From Sphaerochaeta sp. (GTDB lineage: Bacteria > Spirochaetota > Spirochaetia > Sphaerochaetales > Sphaerochaetaceae), in the NCBI GenBank assembly GCA_016342655.1, contig JAEINL010000030.1:1-42741 (forward strand): DNA of 42,741 bases, in the 5' to 3' direction. This document shows, piece by piece, positions 12,705 to 19,108 of the stretch. Made by a program: the position numbers and the translations under genes. The first letter of the stretch is position 1; each line of letters begins with the position of its first letter. Under the pieces are notes generated by a model that made no database searches, was not told where the DNA came from, and was given only the letters and a program-made list of their open reading frames with translations.

Positions 12705-12888
12705 GCAAAGCAATGGAGAAGAAGATCCTCTGATCACTGAACTCTACTAGGGTAAAAGAATTGAAAAAACTCTGAATGATTTTGACCACAGGTGCAAGGA
12801 TTTTGCGAAATCACCTATGGTAACTATTTAAGTAGTGACAACGTAAATAAAAGCTAAGAAAGATTTTTTAAAAAAACGCAAAAAAGTA

Positions 12889-12917
12889 TTGATTATTTTC
12901 CCTGATGTTTGTAGTGT
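12889..12917 (+). promoter_or_regulatory. candidate promoter of the anti-SD small RNA
   Basis: TTGATT (12889-12894) and TAGTGT (12912-12917) are 17 bases apart, following an A/T-rich tract resembling an UP element. The predicted start is near 12924. Confidence 0.4.
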
Positions 12918-12923
12918 TCTAGC

Positions 12924-13042
12924 CAGAAAGAGAACGACATGCTTCTGCGTCCGTCGGACTAGATAGCACAGATATCGGATTTTTTCTAACCTCCTTTTGT
13001 TCCCTCTAGGGTTTAACCTCCTTTTCCCTAGAGGGTTTTTTT
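12924..13042 (+). ncRNA. candidate small RNA with two anti-Shine-Dalgarno repeats
   Basis: A predicted transcript of about 119 nt that does not overlap any supported gene, bounded by the promoter at 12889-12917 and a strong terminator. It holds two identical 12-base elements TAACCTCCTTTT at 12987-12998 and 13014-13025. Each contains ACCTCCTTTT, complementary to the ribosome-binding site AAAAGGAGGT and matching the 16S rRNA 3' end. The second copy sits in the 14-base loop of the terminator hairpin, exposed for pairing; the first lies in a predicted single-stranded CU-rich segment. A small stem GTCC/GGAC occurs at 12949-12959. C-rich loops that block ribosome sites are known in other bacterial sRNAs such as staphylococcal RNAIII. 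No open reading frame with a ribosome site is visible. The family is not one I recognise. Confidence 0.5.
13002..13042 (+). terminator. intrinsic terminator of the candidate small RNA
   Basis: CCCTCTAGGG (13002-13011) pairs perfectly with CCCTAGAGGG (13026-13035) and is followed by seven Ts (13036-13042). The loop carries the second anti-SD element. Confidence 0.85.
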
Positions 13043-13178: not shown

Positions 13179-13203
13179 ACGCACTCTCTCGAGTGCGTCT
13201 TTT
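13179..13203. terminator. hairpin between the small-RNA region and the exporter genes
   Basis: ACGCACTC (13179-13186) and GAGTGCGT (13191-13198) form a perfect 8-bp stem with loop TCTC, followed on the + strand by CTTTT. It may terminate the minus-strand exporter operon, or a + transcript that starts near a TATAAT at 13055-13060. Confidence 0.55.
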
Positions 13204-13266: not shown

Positions 13267-15159
13267 CTAATCCAGCTCGAAGACCCCAGTATAGAGCTTC
13301 TGGTACTGGCCTTGCTTGTCCATCAGCTGCTGGTGAGTACCTCGCTCGATAATTTCTCCTTGCTCGAGCACCATAATTACATCGGCGTTCTTAATGGTGG
13401 AAAGCCTGTGTGCAATGACAAAGACTGTTCTTCCGTGCATAAGGGCGTCCATACCTTTCTGCACTATTGCCTCTGTCCTGGTGTCTATACTGCTGGTAGC
13501 CTCATCAAGGATGAGTACCGGAGGGTTGGCAACGATCGCCCTGGCGATGGAGATGAGCTGTCGCTGTCCCTGGGAAAGGGAAGAACCGTCTCCTGCAAGC
13601 TCAGACTCGTAGCCCTGGGGAAGCAATCGGATGAAGGAATCGGCATTGGCAAGCTTTGCTGCCTCGATGACCTCTTCGTCCTTGGCATCCAATCTTCCAT
13701 AGCGGATATTCTCCATGACAGTGCCTGAGAACAGGTTCACATCCTGCAAGACCACACCCAGTGAGCGCCTGAGGTCATCCTTCTTTATCTTGTTGATGTT
13801 GATGCCATCGTAGCGGATCTTTCCGTCAGCCAGGTCATAGAAGCGGTTGATCAGGTTGGTTATGGTTGTCTTGCCTGCTCCGGTTGCACCTACCAGGGCG
13901 ATCTTATGGGTAGGGCGGGCATAGAGGGATACATCCTTGAGCACTAAGGTCTCTTCGGTATAGCCAAAGTCGACATTGAAGAACTGCACATAGCCGTCCA
14001 ACTTGGTATACATCTCGGCTTGTGTGTTGTGGGGGTTCTTCCATGCCCAGAAATTGGTCCGTCTGTCTGTCTCTACAATCGCGCCTTTTTCATCATAGGC
14101 GGCATTTACCAAGGTCACGTACCCCTCGTCAACTTCCGGCTCCTGGTCAAGCAGGGCAAAGATACGCTTTGCCCCTGCTAGGGCCATGACCACACTGTTG
14201 AGTTGCTGTGCCATCTGGTTGATGGGCATGTTGATCGTCCTGCTCAGTTGTAGGAATGTTGCGATGGCACCTAGGGTGAGGACCCCTCCCCATCCGCTGA
14301 TAGCCAGCATTCCTCCGGCAATCGCCACGATCACATACTGGATGTAGCTGATGTTTCCCATTATCGGCATGAGGATATTTGCAAACCTATTGGCCTTGTT
14401 CGCATTGTTGAAGAGCTCTTCATTGAGCTTGTCAAAGGATTTTTCAGCTTCCTTTTCATAGGTGAATACCTTGACCACTTTCTGGCCGTGGATCATCTCT
14501 TCGATGAAACCGTTGGTCTTTCCCAAGGATTTTTGCTGGTCCATAAAATACTTACCGCTTTGCTTGGCAATCTTAGAGGTAATCCACAGCATTCCTGTAA
14601 GGGAAAAGATCACCACCACCGTCAAATGCCAACTTGTAAAGAGCATGGCAAAGAATATTGCTAGTACGGTAAGTGAGGAGGAGAATATGTTCGGTATGCT
14701 TTGTGTCACCAGCTGGCGCAAGGTGTCGGTATCATTAGTATAGAGACTCATCAGGTCCCCATGGGAATTGGTATCGAAAAACCTGATGCTGAGGTGCTGC
14801 ATATGGGCGAACATATCATCTCTGATGTTCCTCAGCGCACTTTGTGCGATGGTGATCATCAGCCGGTTGTACAGGAACGTTGCAATCACCCCAGCCAGAT
14901 ATATGCCTCCCATCATGGCCAAGGCCTTGAGTAGGGGTAAGAAGGAAGGGTTTGCCTCGCTAGAGAGTGGGACAATGAAGTCGTCGATCAACACGCGTAG
15001 GAAGAGCGACCCCCCGACTCCTGCCAACGCACTTATCACAATGCAGAGCAGGACGAGGATGAAGCGTTTCTTATACGGAACGAAGATGTATTCGAGGAGA
15101 CGGCTCATCGTATGCTTATCGAGTTTCATCTTTTTGGTTTCTTTCTTGGTAGCGCCCAT
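13267..15159 (-). CDS. heterodimeric ABC exporter subunit with canonical catalytic residues
   Basis: A 630-aa half-transporter: a six-helix ABC type I exporter membrane domain (about residues 30-330) and a C-terminal ATPase domain. Walker A is GATGAGKTT, the Q-loop VVLQDVNLFSGT, the signature LSQGQRQ (Gly-to-Gln at the third position), Walker B with Glu LILDEATSS, and the H-loop VIAHRLST. It therefore keeps the catalytic Glu and His that its partner lacks. About 50 residues between the two domains (near 350-400) form an extra linker seen in TM288-like subunits. GGAGG lies just before the ATG, which overlaps the partner's stop by one base. Likely role: multidrug or lipid-like export in the inner membrane. 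Confidence 0.88.
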   Translation of the reverse strand: MGATKKETKKMKLDKHTMSRLLEYIFVPYKKRFILVLLCIVISALAGVGGSLFLRVLIDDFIVPLSSEANPSFLPLLKALAMMGGIYLAGVIATFLYNRLMITIAQSALRNIRDDMFAHMQHLSIRFFDTNSHGDLMSLYTNDTDTLRQLVTQSIPNIFSSSLTVLAIFFAMLFTSWHLTVVVIFSLTGMLWITSKIAKQSGKYFMDQQKSLGKTNGFIEEMIHGQKVVKVFTYEKEAEKSFDKLNEELFNNANKANRFANILMPIMGNISYIQYVIVAIAGGMLAISGWGGVLTLGAIATFLQLSRTINMPINQMAQQLNSVVMALAGAKRIFALLDQEPEVDEGYVTLVNAAYDEKGAIVETDRRTNFWAWKNPHNTQAEMYTKLDGYVQFFNVDFGYTEETLVLKDVSLYARPTHKIALVGATGAGKTTITNLINRFYDLADGKIRYDGININKIKKDDLRRSLGVVLQDVNLFSGTVMENIRYGRLDAKDEEVIEAAKLANADSFIRLLPQGYESELAGDGSSLSQGQRQLISIARAIVANPPVLILDEATSSIDTRTEAIVQKGMDALMHGRTVFVIAHRLSTIKNADVIMVLEQGEIIERGTHQQLMDKQGQYQKLYTGVFELD

Positions 15160-16883
15160 TATGCCTCCTCCCTACTCTGGGAGTCGTAAATCTCACGATA
15201 CATCTCACTATGGATAAGCAGTTCATCATGTGATCCTACGCTCTGGATCAGGCCTTCGTCGAGAACCACGATCATATCTGCGTCCTTTACGGAGTTAATC
15301 CTCTGGGAGATGATGATCTTGGTGGTTTCCTTGAGCTCATTTCTGAAAGCTCCCCTGATATGGGTATCGGTCTTGGTGTCGACAGCACTGGTCGAGTCAT
15401 CCAGGATGAGAATCTTCGGTTGTTGTAAAATCGAACGGGCAATGCTGAGCCTCTGCTTCTGACCTCCCGAGAGGTTGGATCCGTCTTGCTCGATATGCGA
15501 GTCATACCCATCGGGAAAGCTCTGTATGAAGGGGTCAGCCTGTGCGATCTTGCACGCAGCAATCATCTGCTCGTCACTTGCCTCCAGGTTTCCCCACCTG
15601 AGGTTTTCCTTGATGGTTCCTGAGAAGAGCACGCTCTTTTGCAAGACCACGCTGACCGCATTCCTGAGGGAAGAGAGCTGGTAATCCCGGACATCCTGGC
15701 CTCCTACCTTCACCGAACCTGAGAATACATCGTAGAGGCGCCCGATCAACTGGATGAGGCTGGTCTTGCCGCTGCCTGTAGAGCCGATGATACCAACAAC
15801 ATCACCGCTATTGATGTGTAGGTCTATATCCTTGAGGCAGAGCTTGTCCTCTGTTTTGGTGTAGCTGAAGGTTACCTTTTCAAAATCAATACTTCCATCG
15901 GTAACGGATGTGATGGCGCCCTCCTTGTCGGTAAGATCACTCTTTTCAGAGAGCACCTCTTCAATACGGAAAGCTGAAGCCCTGCTGATGGTGATCATGA
16001 CAAAGACCATCGAGAGCATCATCAGGCTCATGAGAATCTGGGAGGTGTAGGTGATGAAACTCATCAGCTGACCGGTGGTCATGCTGTCGCTTACAATGAG
16101 GCGAGCTCCCAAGTAGGATATGGTGAGCAGGCTGATATACATCAGGCCCTGCATCAGTGGACTGTTGAAGGCAACGATCTTCTCTGCCTTACTGGAATCC
16201 TGATAGATGGAATCGGAGACCTTCCCAAACTTCTCTGTCTCATGCTCTTCCCGTACAAAAGCTTTTACCACCCGTACACCCCGGACATTCTCCTGAACTA
16301 CAGAATTGAGCTTGTCATAGGTCTTGAACACCCTGACAAAGAGAGGGTAGGCGTGCGAAATGATGATGAACATCCCTAAGGCCAACAGGGGAATGGCCCC
16401 GAGATAGACCAAAGAGAGTTTGGCATTGAGCCTGCTTGCCATGAAGAAGCTGAAGGCCAGCATAAAGGGACTGCGCACTGCTATTCTGATGAGCATCTGA
16501 TACGAACGTTGCACGTTGGTCACGTCTGTGGTCAGACGGGTGATGAGGCTCGAAGAGGAGAACTTGTCGATATTCGAGAAGGAGAAATCCTGTATGGTGT
16601 AGTACATCTTCTGCCTGAGGTTCTTGGCAAATCCGGTTGAGGCAATAGCTGCAAAAAACCCTGAAAGAACACCAAAGATGAGTGCAACAAGCGCACATCC
16701 GAGAAGGATTATACCCCAGTACCAGATACGCTCCATATTGCCCGCATCAATTCCCTGGTCAATGAGGTTGGCCATCAGATAGGGGATGAATACATCCATG
16801 ACCACTTCCAAAATCATAAATAAGGAAGTCAGAAAGCTTGGTAACCTATAGCCTTTTGTCTGTTTTCGTAAATTCTGTAACAT
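15159..16883 (-). CDS. heterodimeric ABC exporter subunit with degenerate catalytic site
   Basis: A 574-aa half-transporter with a six-helix membrane domain and an ATPase domain. Walker A is GSTGSGKTS and the signature LSGGQKQR is canonical. Walker B ends in ILILDDSTS (Asp in place of the catalytic Glu), and the H-loop reads IISQRINS (Gln in place of His). This is the classic degenerate-site arrangement of TM287/288, BmrCD and LmrCD-type heterodimers: the degenerate site is formed by this subunit's Walker motifs with the partner's LSQGQ. It lies 11 bases after the MarR gene and overlaps the partner start, so it is in one operon with both. Confidence 0.9.
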   Translation of the reverse strand: MLQNLRKQTKGYRLPSFLTSLFMILEVVMDVFIPYLMANLIDQGIDAGNMERIWYWGIILLGCALVALIFGVLSGFFAAIASTGFAKNLRQKMYYTIQDFSFSNIDKFSSSSLITRLTTDVTNVQRSYQMLIRIAVRSPFMLAFSFFMASRLNAKLSLVYLGAIPLLALGMFIIISHAYPLFVRVFKTYDKLNSVVQENVRGVRVVKAFVREEHETEKFGKVSDSIYQDSSKAEKIVAFNSPLMQGLMYISLLTISYLGARLIVSDSMTTGQLMSFITYTSQILMSLMMLSMVFVMITISRASAFRIEEVLSEKSDLTDKEGAITSVTDGSIDFEKVTFSYTKTEDKLCLKDIDLHINSGDVVGIIGSTGSGKTSLIQLIGRLYDVFSGSVKVGGQDVRDYQLSSLRNAVSVVLQKSVLFSGTIKENLRWGNLEASDEQMIAACKIAQADPFIQSFPDGYDSHIEQDGSNLSGGQKQRLSIARSILQQPKILILDDSTSAVDTKTDTHIRGAFRNELKETTKIIISQRINSVKDADMIVVLDEGLIQSVGSHDELLIHSEMYREIYDSQSREEA

Positions 16884-16894
16884 GCTGTGTCTCT

Positions 16895-17332
16895 CTACTC
16901 CAAATTCTTCTTGAGCTTCTCTGTTATTGCGAAGAACTGTGTAAGCTCATCTTTAGTCAAACCGCTTTGAAGGTTCTGTTCGAACTCCTGAATGAAAGCC
17001 AGGTGCTGTAAGTAAATCTGATAGCCAGTTTCTGTAATGACCACAATGTTCTGTCTGGCATCGTCAGGGCTGGGGGTACGTGTTATCAAGTGGTTGGTTT
17101 CCATCAGGCGAAGCATGTTTGCTGCTGTGGAACCACGTATGCCAAATTCCTTTTGAATCTCCCTCTGGGAAATGGATTTCCTCTCTGTACGGTTTAAGAA
17201 GCAAAGGATATGTGCCTGCATAGGTGTTATGGGGCTATTGCCCTGTTTCCTTATACCTTCCTCAAGTTTACGGGAGACGAGGTTTGTAAGAATTTTAAGG
17301 GTTAGTCCGATGCGATCAGAGGTGTGGTGCAC
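16895..17332 (-). CDS. MarR-family transcriptional regulator
   Basis: A 145-aa winged helix-turn-helix protein. Helix-turn-helix residues SISQREIQKEFGIRGSTAANMLRLME (about 53-78, recognition helix in its second half) precede a wing with RTPSPDDARQNIVVITETG, the family's DxRxxxxxLTxxG signature. The start is GTG at 17332, supported by AAGGAG a few bases upstream on the minus strand. It is the first gene of the exporter operon and probably represses it until a drug or metabolite binds. An inverted repeat 15-30 bases upstream is the likely operator. Confidence 0.88.
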   Translation of the reverse strand: MHHTSDRIGLTLKILTNLVSRKLEEGIRKQGNSPITPMQAHILCFLNRTERKSISQREIQKEFGIRGSTAANMLRLMETNHLITRTPSPDDARQNIVVITETGYQIYLQHLAFIQEFEQNLQSGLTKDELTQFFAITEKLKKNLE

Positions 17333-17536: not shown

Positions 17537-19108
17537 CTAGAGCAGCTCGGAATATGCCTTGAGCACTTCGTCCCCTTCGCAGCCGTTGAGCACCTTGGTG
17601 GCAAGTACCTTGCCAAGTTGCACACCCTCCTGGTCAAAGCTGTTGAGATTCCAGGCAAAGCCTTGGAACATCACCTTGTTCTCAAAGTGTGCGAGCAGGG
17701 CCCCAAGAGTCCTTGGTTCAAGCTTTTCTGCAAACAACAAGGAAGAGTACCGGTTGCCCTCAAACTGTTTGTTTGGGTTCGCATCCTTCTTGCCCTTGGC
17801 AAAGGCAACTATCTGGGCGACAAGGTTTGCATTGAGCTTGGTCTGGCTTGTGGAATTCTCAACTACAAGGTCCTTGCCGTACTGGGAGGACGAAAATCCA
17901 ATGAATTGCAAAGGAATGGTATCGGTTCCCTGGTGCAGGAGCTGGTAGAAGGAGTGCTGTCCGTTGGTTCCAGGTTCTCCGAATATGATGGGACCTGTGC
18001 TGTAGGAGAGAGGATCCCCTTCCCGATTCACATGCTTGCCGTTGCTTTCCATATCCAGCTGCTGCAGATGGGCAGGGAAGCGTGTCAGGGCTTGAGCGTA
18101 AGGCAGTATTGCTGTGGTTGGAAGTCCTAAAGCATTCCTCAGATAGATACCGATAAGGGCGTCAGCCAGTGCTGCATTCTTGGTTATGTCGTCTTCCAAG
18201 GAGAGGATGTCTGCCTCATGAGCTCCGCTGAGAAATTCAGCAAAGACAGGATAACCAAAGGCAAGGGAGAGTAATACACCGCCCACTGCACTGGTGGCGC
18301 TGTACCTTCCCCCTATATAGTCATCGATATAGAAGGCATCAAGCAATGAGGAGGAGGTGGCTAGGGGGCTGGTCTTGCTGGTGACAGCGACCATATGCTT
18401 TTCGGCCTGAATGCCCTGTATGCCACTTTCAGTTATGGCCTTGAGCACCAGGTCCCTATTGGTGAGGGTCTCCAGTGTGGTTCCGCTCTTTGAGACCAGG
18501 ATGAACAGGGTGGTCTCAAAGTCCAGTCCCTTGAGCACTTCGGCGGCATCGTCAGGGTCGACATTGCTGATGAAACGGGCGTCAAGCTGAGGGATATCCT
18601 CTGCTGTGCACCAACCCTTGAGGGCGAGGTAGAGGGCGCGCGGGCCCAGGTCGCTTCCGCCGATACCGATCTGTACGACTGTCTTGAAGGGCTTTCCTGT
18701 CGAACCCACTATCTTGCCATTGCGTACCTTCTGGGAGAATGTTTCAATCTTCTTCAGTACGGCAACGTAGAAATCACCTTTATTCTCCCCGTTTACCTGG
18801 ATAGGATCGAGCACCTGTCCTCGGGTAAGATGGTGCAAGACCAGTCTTTTCTCTCCGGTGTTCATTATTTCACCATTGAGGACGGCGCGGTACTTTTCAA
18901 TGAGCTGTTGCTCGTCGGCGAGTTCCTGCAGAACAGCTAGGCTCTGCTTGTCAACGGGCATGGATGCATAGTTGTAGGTGAGACCGCCTGCAGAGGCGAT
19001 TTGATATGTCTTGATGCGTTGCTTGTCCAGCACTGTAGCAAGGTCTTTTGGCTGGAGGGTCAGCAGGCGGGCGTATGCATCAGTCTTGTCAAGATTCTTA
19101 AATATCAT
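17537..19108 (-). CDS. pgi: glucose-6-phosphate isomerase
   Basis: A glycolytic isomerase converting glucose 6-phosphate to fructose 6-phosphate in the cytoplasm. Family signatures are clear: GIGGSDLGP in the SIS domain, SKSGTTLET, the PROSITE-type segment DYIGGRYSATSAVG, and EPGTNGQHSFYQLLHQG near the active-site glutamate. Length is 523 aa from the ATG at 19108, which has AAGGAG eight bases upstream; a 20-residue extension to 19168 has no supporting site and would cross a hairpin. It follows argR on the same strand with a terminator-like hairpin between them, so it either has its own promoter or is read through. Confidence 0.95.
   Translation of the reverse strand: MIFKNLDKTDAYARLLTLQPKDLATVLDKQRIKTYQIASAGGLTYNYASMPVDKQSLAVLQELADEQQLIEKYRAVLNGEIMNTGEKRLVLHHLTRGQVLDPIQVNGENKGDFYVAVLKKIETFSQKVRNGKIVGSTGKPFKTVVQIGIGGSDLGPRALYLALKGWCTAEDIPQLDARFISNVDPDDAAEVLKGLDFETTLFILVSKSGTTLETLTNRDLVLKAITESGIQGIQAEKHMVAVTSKTSPLATSSSLLDAFYIDDYIGGRYSATSAVGGVLLSLAFGYPVFAEFLSGAHEADILSLEDDITKNAALADALIGIYLRNALGLPTTAILPYAQALTRFPAHLQQLDMESNGKHVNREGDPLSYSTGPIIFGEPGTNGQHSFYQLLHQGTDTIPLQFIGFSSSQYGKDLVVENSTSQTKLNANLVAQIVAFAKGKKDANPNKQFEGNRYSSLLFAEKLEPRTLGALLAHFENKVMFQGFAWNLNSFDQEGVQLGKVLATKVLNGCEGDEVLKAYSELL

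Follow-up and report, generated by a model that had tools for sequence, protein, structure and literature searches.

The window, a 42,741-nucleotide stretch of Sphaerochaeta DNA, carries what we consider, with a probability of about 0.7, to be a member of a stand-alone spirochaete small RNA (sRNA) family that presents a duplicate anti-Shine-Dalgarno (anti-SD) motif and would most likely block translation initiation in trans without Hfq. The structure of this RNA is predicted and conserved, its motifs are nearly invariant, it is present as a single copy in its own genome, and its terminator lies on the plus strand. From the sequence we infer transcription, action in trans and repression; by analogy with known anti-SD RNAs, pairing with a Shine-Dalgarno (SD) sequence would block 30S binding. 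The initial annotation had proposed a separate small RNA with two anti-SD elements, a proposal that is now well supported by homologues, covariation, invariant unpaired motifs, the single copy and changing neighbours. The sRNA families annotated in spirochaetes are few, six being given in a table within the accessible part of one report (PMC9029176). An RNA found across much of the class, whose two anti-SD elements are its nearly invariant parts, would offer a handle on translation control in Hfq-less spirochaetes.

Layout and constraint of the RNA element

The element and the related features of the window are arranged as follows.

12889..12917, plus strand: promoter-like pair, TTGATT (12889-12894), 17-base spacer, TAGTGT (12912-12917)
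12925..13042, plus strand: whole small RNA, about 118 nt, from predicted fold, genus alignment and blastn; putative 5′ end
12925..12987, plus strand: 5′ hairpin domain, closing stem 12925-12932/12980-12987, with inner stems
12988..13001, plus strand: linker AACCTCCTTTTGTT, 14 bases, predicted unpaired, holding anti-SD copy 1 (aSD1)
12989-12998, plus strand: aSD1, ACCTCCTTTT, within the linker
13002..13035, plus strand: terminator hairpin, 10-bp stem, CCCTCTAGGG (13002-13011) with CCCTAGAGGG (13026-13035), ten perfect pairs
13012..13025, plus strand: terminator loop TTTAACCTCCTTTT, 14 bases, holding anti-SD copy 2 (aSD2)
13016-13025, plus strand: aSD2, ACCTCCTTTT, within the terminator loop
13036..13042, plus strand: U tract of the intrinsic terminator, seven T
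17540..19102, minus strand: glucose-6-phosphate isomerase gene (pgi), tblastn 61.8% over 526 aligned positions, about 4.5 kb from the RNA

The 12-base sequence TAACCTCCTTTT was read at 12987-12998 and at 13014-13025, as the initial annotation had described, the second copy lying within the 14-base terminator loop. This pair is the sole exact 12-base repeat with starts 6-40 bases apart on the plus strand of the window, besides one simple tandem. When both strands were searched, ACCTCCTTTT occurred exactly at two sites in the 42.7-kb window, both within the RNA; allowing one mismatch yielded 7 sites versus 3.56 expected, which is unremarkable. The segment 12925-13042 folded at -36.6 kcal/mol (z -3.05), and none of 200 shuffles was equally good. 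The 5′ end of the RNA likely lies close to 12925, the position at which the modelled 5′ hairpin starts its closing stem, and not at 12889. Blastn alignments of many relatives start at query base 36, corresponding to 12924, and the outer stem, linker and terminator are common to the genus sequences. The strong terminator recognized at the outset is present, with ten perfect base pairs and seven T, and its stem is conserved by compensation. Some 140 bases further downstream, at 13179-13198, lies another hairpin that resembles a terminator, ACGCACTCTCTCGAGTGCGT, with a weak run of T.

The conservation of the element is what sets it clearly beyond chance. In an alignment of 17 sequences from the genus and its near kin (A3), TAACCTCCTTTTGT and TTTAACCTCCTTTT were identical in all 17 while the stems varied, and the copies of ACCTCCTTTT in the linker and loop were invariant. 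Double-sided changes were observed at 8 of the 25 consensus pairs of A3, five at inner pairs of the 5′ hairpin and three in the terminator. Across 80 distinct sequences, compensatory changes affected 9 of the 10 pairs of the terminator stem (116 cells), a count biased upward by the fitting of this alignment to the structure; the terminator covariation score was 0.413 versus 0.125 for shuffled and at most 0.123 for slid alignments, exceeding 500 of 500 shuffles. A MAFFT alignment (A1) was also analysed, comprising 32 of 40 loci once a copy truncated at a contig end and seven copies from the genus, several of which duplicated or nearly duplicated retained rows, had been excluded. It contained 13 compensatory cells at five pairs; the cells were above all 500 shuffles, whereas further pair types were matched by 298 of 500 shuffles, and A1 was also not above a slide of +1.

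Both motifs are predicted to be accessible. The unpaired probability of aSD2 exceeded 0.8 in all 82 homologues, and that of aSD1 averaged 0.81 and exceeded 0.5 in 72 of 82, with half or more of aSD1 predicted to be paired in the other 10. One chance match (L085), which was kept in alignment A2 and model R2, was removed from these counts and from the strand counts below. A class-wide 5′ hairpin was found under a permissive rule in 73 of 82 homologues, but also in 82% of shuffles, and its mean energy was -8.4 versus -5.0 kcal/mol in shuffles. As it was not clearly better than shuffles under the permissive rule, the class-wide hairpin was rejected, and the 5′ hairpin is claimed for genus-type sequences only.

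Distribution across spirochaetes

A 157-base blastn query matched 40 of 60 genomes once each, among them 24 of the 26 genus genomes, with distant genomes aligning only across the last 50-65 bases. The hairpin and both repeats are retained in relatives, with motifs that are nearly invariant. With E 0.01 as cut-off, a first covariance model of the conserved core, built from 32 sequences, matched 100 of the 392 genomes of the phylum; eight of these matches were outside the class, weak and possibly due to chance. For the second model, 92 loci were given as search input, of which 84 matched, and the model was built from 84 matches. At E 1e-4 it matched 166 of 394 class genomes and left 228 without a match; within the family of the window, 84 of 92 genomes were matched (by a manual count of rows). 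The window's own genome contains a single copy (E 6e-17; next best 1.3). Most of the matching genomes listed have one match, and some have two or three (G040, G044, G047, G435, G438, G439, G448, G455 and G568), which raises the possibility of occasional duplication of the RNA.

Furthermore, we scanned a named collection of 84,980 species, with one genome each, for the exact two-motif pattern and obtained 77 contigs. The hairpin was carried by 67 spirochaete contigs, three of them identified as such by candidate genus names, and by one contig labelled Cloacimonadota. The remaining nine look like chance: no hairpin was seen in them by reading, eight had no covariance match at E 0.1, and the ninth had a weak one of 26 bits. 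The Cloacimonadota-labelled contig (L141) has Sphaerochaetaceae-type upstream sequence and a pgi-cluster gene downstream, and is for this reason probably mis-binned. The exact two-motif pattern is therefore nearly confined to spirochaetes in this collection. A phage origin was rejected, as 50,697 phage records gave no match.

Pairing potential, targets and known relatives in function

The 16S tail GGATCACCTCCTTTCT was found in ten rRNA copies of six relatives, all of which share ACCTCCTTT with the motif; the window's own assembly gave no 16S tail match. With this tail, 9 of the 10 motif bases match, not all 10. Pairing with AAAAGGAGGT sites, as proposed initially, is not supported in that form: AAAAGGAGGT-N2-7-ATG occurred 12 times in 7 genomes versus 13 for a backwards control, and AAAGGAGGTT-N0-7-ATG 36 times in 26 genomes versus 47. 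Given that full complements before ATG are rare and not in excess over the control, most pairings would use a shorter core. The 'global' SD-binding role suggested initially is not supported as worded, since complements before ATG are no commoner than in the backwards control, and the rarity of full 10-base complements at this position renders such a role doubtful.

A profile search for Hfq (PF17209), which detected the protein in 5 of 14 control genomes, including E. coli and B. subtilis, found none in 59 of 60 genomes. The sole Hfq gene (G004:C20:2187-2375) lies in a fragmented assembly and is either contamination or a real exception. With hosts that lack Hfq, the RNA would act without it or through another chaperone in its place. 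In the mechanism that we favour, a transcript would run from near 12925 to the U tract at 13042 and display the anti-SD of 16S rRNA twice, in the single-stranded linker and in the terminator loop. Either motif could pair with an mRNA at its SD region and exclude the 30S subunit; the two motifs might provide redundancy or allow one RNA to catch two mRNAs.

No conserved specific target emerged from our searches. The window's own genome has one further perfect site, AAAAGGAGGTTA, which was rejected as a target because none of the starts lying 30 bases or less from it opens a frame longer than 11 codons. The SD of a universal-stress-protein gene is a full fit in G016 and G006 and close to one in the window genome; its loss in most of 24 genus orthologues led us to reject it as a conserved target. 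In a duplex test on sampled genome stretches, with starts picked by best duplex, solute-binding-protein-like ORFs paired better with the RNA than other ORFs in both G018 (13 of 353 ORFs, one-sided p 2.5e-5) and G016 (28 of 682, one-sided p 3.2e-5), the class having been gathered by an iterated HMM and possibly including other exported proteins. Five of them ranked in the top 30 in G018 (p 0.0025) and three in G016 (p 0.12). The 16S tail alone gave a weaker preference (p 0.013 in G018 and 0.002 in G016), with a residual left over. Composition-shuffled flanks equalled the natural flanks in 38 of the 60 G016 trials and 1 of the 60 G018 trials; in view of the G016 result, the preference may only reflect the strong SDs of highly expressed genes. 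We therefore treat mRNAs for the periplasmic solute-binding proteins of ABC transporters, which are among the better complements, as a lead only. Were they targets, the RNA would control nutrient uptake, which would fit a gene often sited between the phosphofructokinase gene (pfk) and pgi.

SD-length profiles over 400 kb each showed no interpretable difference between G018 and G059, which have the RNA, and G055, which has no match by blastn or the second covariance model, and thus gave no support to an RNA-driven avoidance of strong SDs; counts of strong SDs on homologous loci are confounded by the loci's own motifs. A fuller scheme, which we advance tentatively and regard as unlikely, would make the RNA a decoy anti-SD, a duplicate mimic of the 16S tail acting without Hfq. 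Its level would set the translation of strong-SD mRNAs, those for nutrient uptake first, and would be coupled to glycolysis through the pfk/pgi site, with an alternative-sigma-like promoter in some lineages.

The two ACCUCCUUUU motifs could also be bait for factors that recognize the 16S tail in maturation or initiation, in which case the RNA would be protein-binding or ribosome-associated and its pairing with mRNAs secondary. The nine bases identical to the 16S tail of relatives and the rarity of strong full complements before ATG would suit such a role. However, GATC ahead of ACCTCC, which we take to be part of the Era site, is not conserved, and the bases before ACCTCC differ between loci (TAACC, CGACC, TTGACC or TTTACC); variation of the motif tail to ACCTCCTTTGC is likewise tolerated in some other loci. 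We consider this bait function improbable.

The preferred reading, repression in trans by SD pairing, has parallels among known RNAs. None of 4227 Rfam families reached its threshold anywhere in the window. suhB (RF00519), which we take to be the Rfam entry of the alpha-r14 group, did not turn up for the window at an E-value cut-off of 10 and scored 14.9 versus 41 bits in one relative. The highest bit score in the window and three relatives belonged to LhrC (RF00616), at 31.8, 19.7, 28.0 and 22.6 versus 110 bits; LhrC also had the lowest E-value in three of the four scans, another family being lower in one relative. As described in the accessible text of PMC4132741, LhrC of Listeria likewise has two hairpins, with a C/U-rich SD-binding motif both in an unpaired stretch and in the loop of the terminator, and acts on its target without Hfq, but it is present in five copies and has three CUCCC...UUUU motifs, one of them in a 5′ loop. 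The spirochaete RNA differs in having one copy in its own genome and two ACCUCCUUUU motifs, in belonging to another phylum, and in scoring far below threshold.

The csRNAs of the CiaRH regulon in Streptococcus, a genus without Hfq according to the same part of PMC4132741, have an unpaired anti-SD stretch between two stem-loops, as far as the available portion of PMC3091779 describes them; the predicted structure of the spirochaete RNA shares this feature. The csRNAs also carry an anti-start codon and a CiaR promoter with a TTTAAG pair (PMC3091779, same portion); of that pair, 12820-12925 contains one TTTAAG with no second behind it, and in the spirochaete RNA the terminator loop carries a second motif. 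The alpha-r14 or NfeR1 RNAs of alphaproteobacteria ('cuckoo', suhB-type) similarly combine identical, ultraconserved unpaired anti-SD motifs with variable stems, and the tested targets of NfeR1 include periplasmic ABC-transporter parts (PMC10746234, accessible sections), which the solute-binding lead would fit. They have CCUCCUCCC three times, in three hairpins, whereas the spirochaete RNA has ACCUCCUUUU twice, with one copy in a hairpin loop. RNAIII, RsaE, SprD and FsrA, the UCCC-loop sRNAs of Firmicutes, also bind SDs through a C-rich motif in the summary given in the same part of PMC4132741; the likeness concerns this summary description only, and none of them reached its Rfam threshold in the window.

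For each of LhrC, the csRNAs and alpha-r14, the spirochaete RNA lacks one or more of the defining features; it belongs to none of the three, although by inference it would work as they do. The lack of an Rfam match and these missing features together point to a new family of RNA within a functional kind already known. It would be one more instance, besides LhrC, the csRNAs and alpha-r14, in which an unrelated RNA arrives at this solution, suggesting that different RNAs converge on the SD as their docking site. We found no description of this RNA in the open-licence literature, and the accessible parts of PMC7160235 and PMC8632094 contain no mention of it.

Genomic setting, promoter and strand

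Counts of neighbours were taken from tblastn instead of neighbour clusters, whose sizes are lower bounds because the hairpin finder left 53 of 167 loci unflagged, the nine chance contigs among them. Of the 63 loci that extend more than 700 nt upstream, 42 have a same-strand pfk gene on that side; over all 68 loci the number is 44. The tblastn match to pfk ends between 100 and 604 nt ahead of aSD1. Downstream, a convergent pgi gene was located within 700 nt in 21 of 58 loci, and both genes flank the RNA in 20 of 68; one pfk and one pgi representative were confirmed by Pfam (PF00365 and PF00342). The window itself has a sulfatase gene upstream, not pfk, and the interval 13267-17332 between the RNA and pgi holds an ABC exporter gene and, by reading, another exporter-like gene and one that is MarR-like. 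Elsewhere, an OmpA-like gene was read upstream on the opposite strand in some genomes, and Treponema-like genomes have other neighbours altogether. As the upstream gene changes, the RNA is not a fixed 3′ UTR, and its varied neighbours indicate that the element behaves as a unit of its own.

The promoter is the weak part of the case, whereas the terminator and the conservation are strong. The hexamers and 17-base spacer noted initially are present in the window, but the pair fell below the cut-off of a consensus promoter scan; the terminator search of the same scan had a loop limit of 8 and hence missed the terminator with its 14-base loop. As judged by the hexamers, genus relatives have a similar pair, TTGATT or TTGACG followed by TACTGT, TACTAT or the like. 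Outside the Sphaerochaeta type, as told by reading, whose copies have this sigma-70-like pair, a GTAAC-N16-18-GTT(T/A)N string was located 31-46 bases upstream of aSD1 in 24 of 82 homologues by raw count (carriers include L031, L032, L034, L035, L037, L047, L053, L055-L058, L062, L103 and L104). We presume that this string resembles an alternative-sigma or ECF-type promoter. The strict form TGTAAC-N14-19-GTTTA was present in 11 of the 82 homologues. In seven genomes searched, a stricter version of TGTAAC-N-GTTTA occurred five times, in three genomes; three occurrences were at the RNA gene itself and no ORF of at least 100 aa opened within 300 bases behind the other two, and a regulon of this string was accordingly rejected.

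These data bear on the possibility that the element belongs to the upstream gene, most often pfk, as its 3′ end or terminator, with anti-SD loops acting in cis on its own or a neighbouring mRNA. The frequency and proximity of pfk on the same strand would favour such an arrangement. Yet pfk is not upstream in 21 of the 63 loci, its place being taken by the sulfatase gene in the window and by an OmpA-like gene on the other strand in some genomes, and the promoter-like pair of the genus and the GTAAC-type string of other homologues lie just upstream of the RNA. A cis element is, in our estimation, quite improbable.

If the minus strand were the RNA, it would present two AAGGAGG sites, one of them in a hairpin loop, in the style of a CsrA sponge of the RsmY type. 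Across 65 distinct homologues the reverse complement folds about equally well, the mean difference of 0.23 kcal/mol slightly favouring the minus strand, and an RsmY match appeared on the opposite strand of one relative, far below threshold at 15.6 versus 57 bits. The T tract, however, occurs on the plus strand only, with a mean of 6.83 T in the 8 bases 3′ of the stem versus 0.69 on the minus strand, and the 5′ domain and promoter-like pair also sit on plus. Hairpin pairs were more numerous on plus in 13 homologues, equal in 38 and more numerous on minus in 14. Refolding gave a small surplus of G-U pairs on plus (15 versus 5), and a cruder count of G-U against A-C cells in alignment A2 (33 versus 27) was indecisive for strand. 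A minus-strand RNA is highly unlikely on this evidence. Finally, although the element looks like an intrinsic terminator, an ordinary terminator with a chance repeat and a C-rich loop arising by chance is scarcely credible and already refuted by the conservation pattern, in which the loop and linker motifs are kept nearly invariant while the stem is rewritten by compensation, and its own genome has just one such element.

On the minus strand near aSD1, loci such as L046, L048 and L075 contain AAAAGGAGGTTATGAAAAG, with an SD closely before an ATG, an arrangement that looks coincidental.
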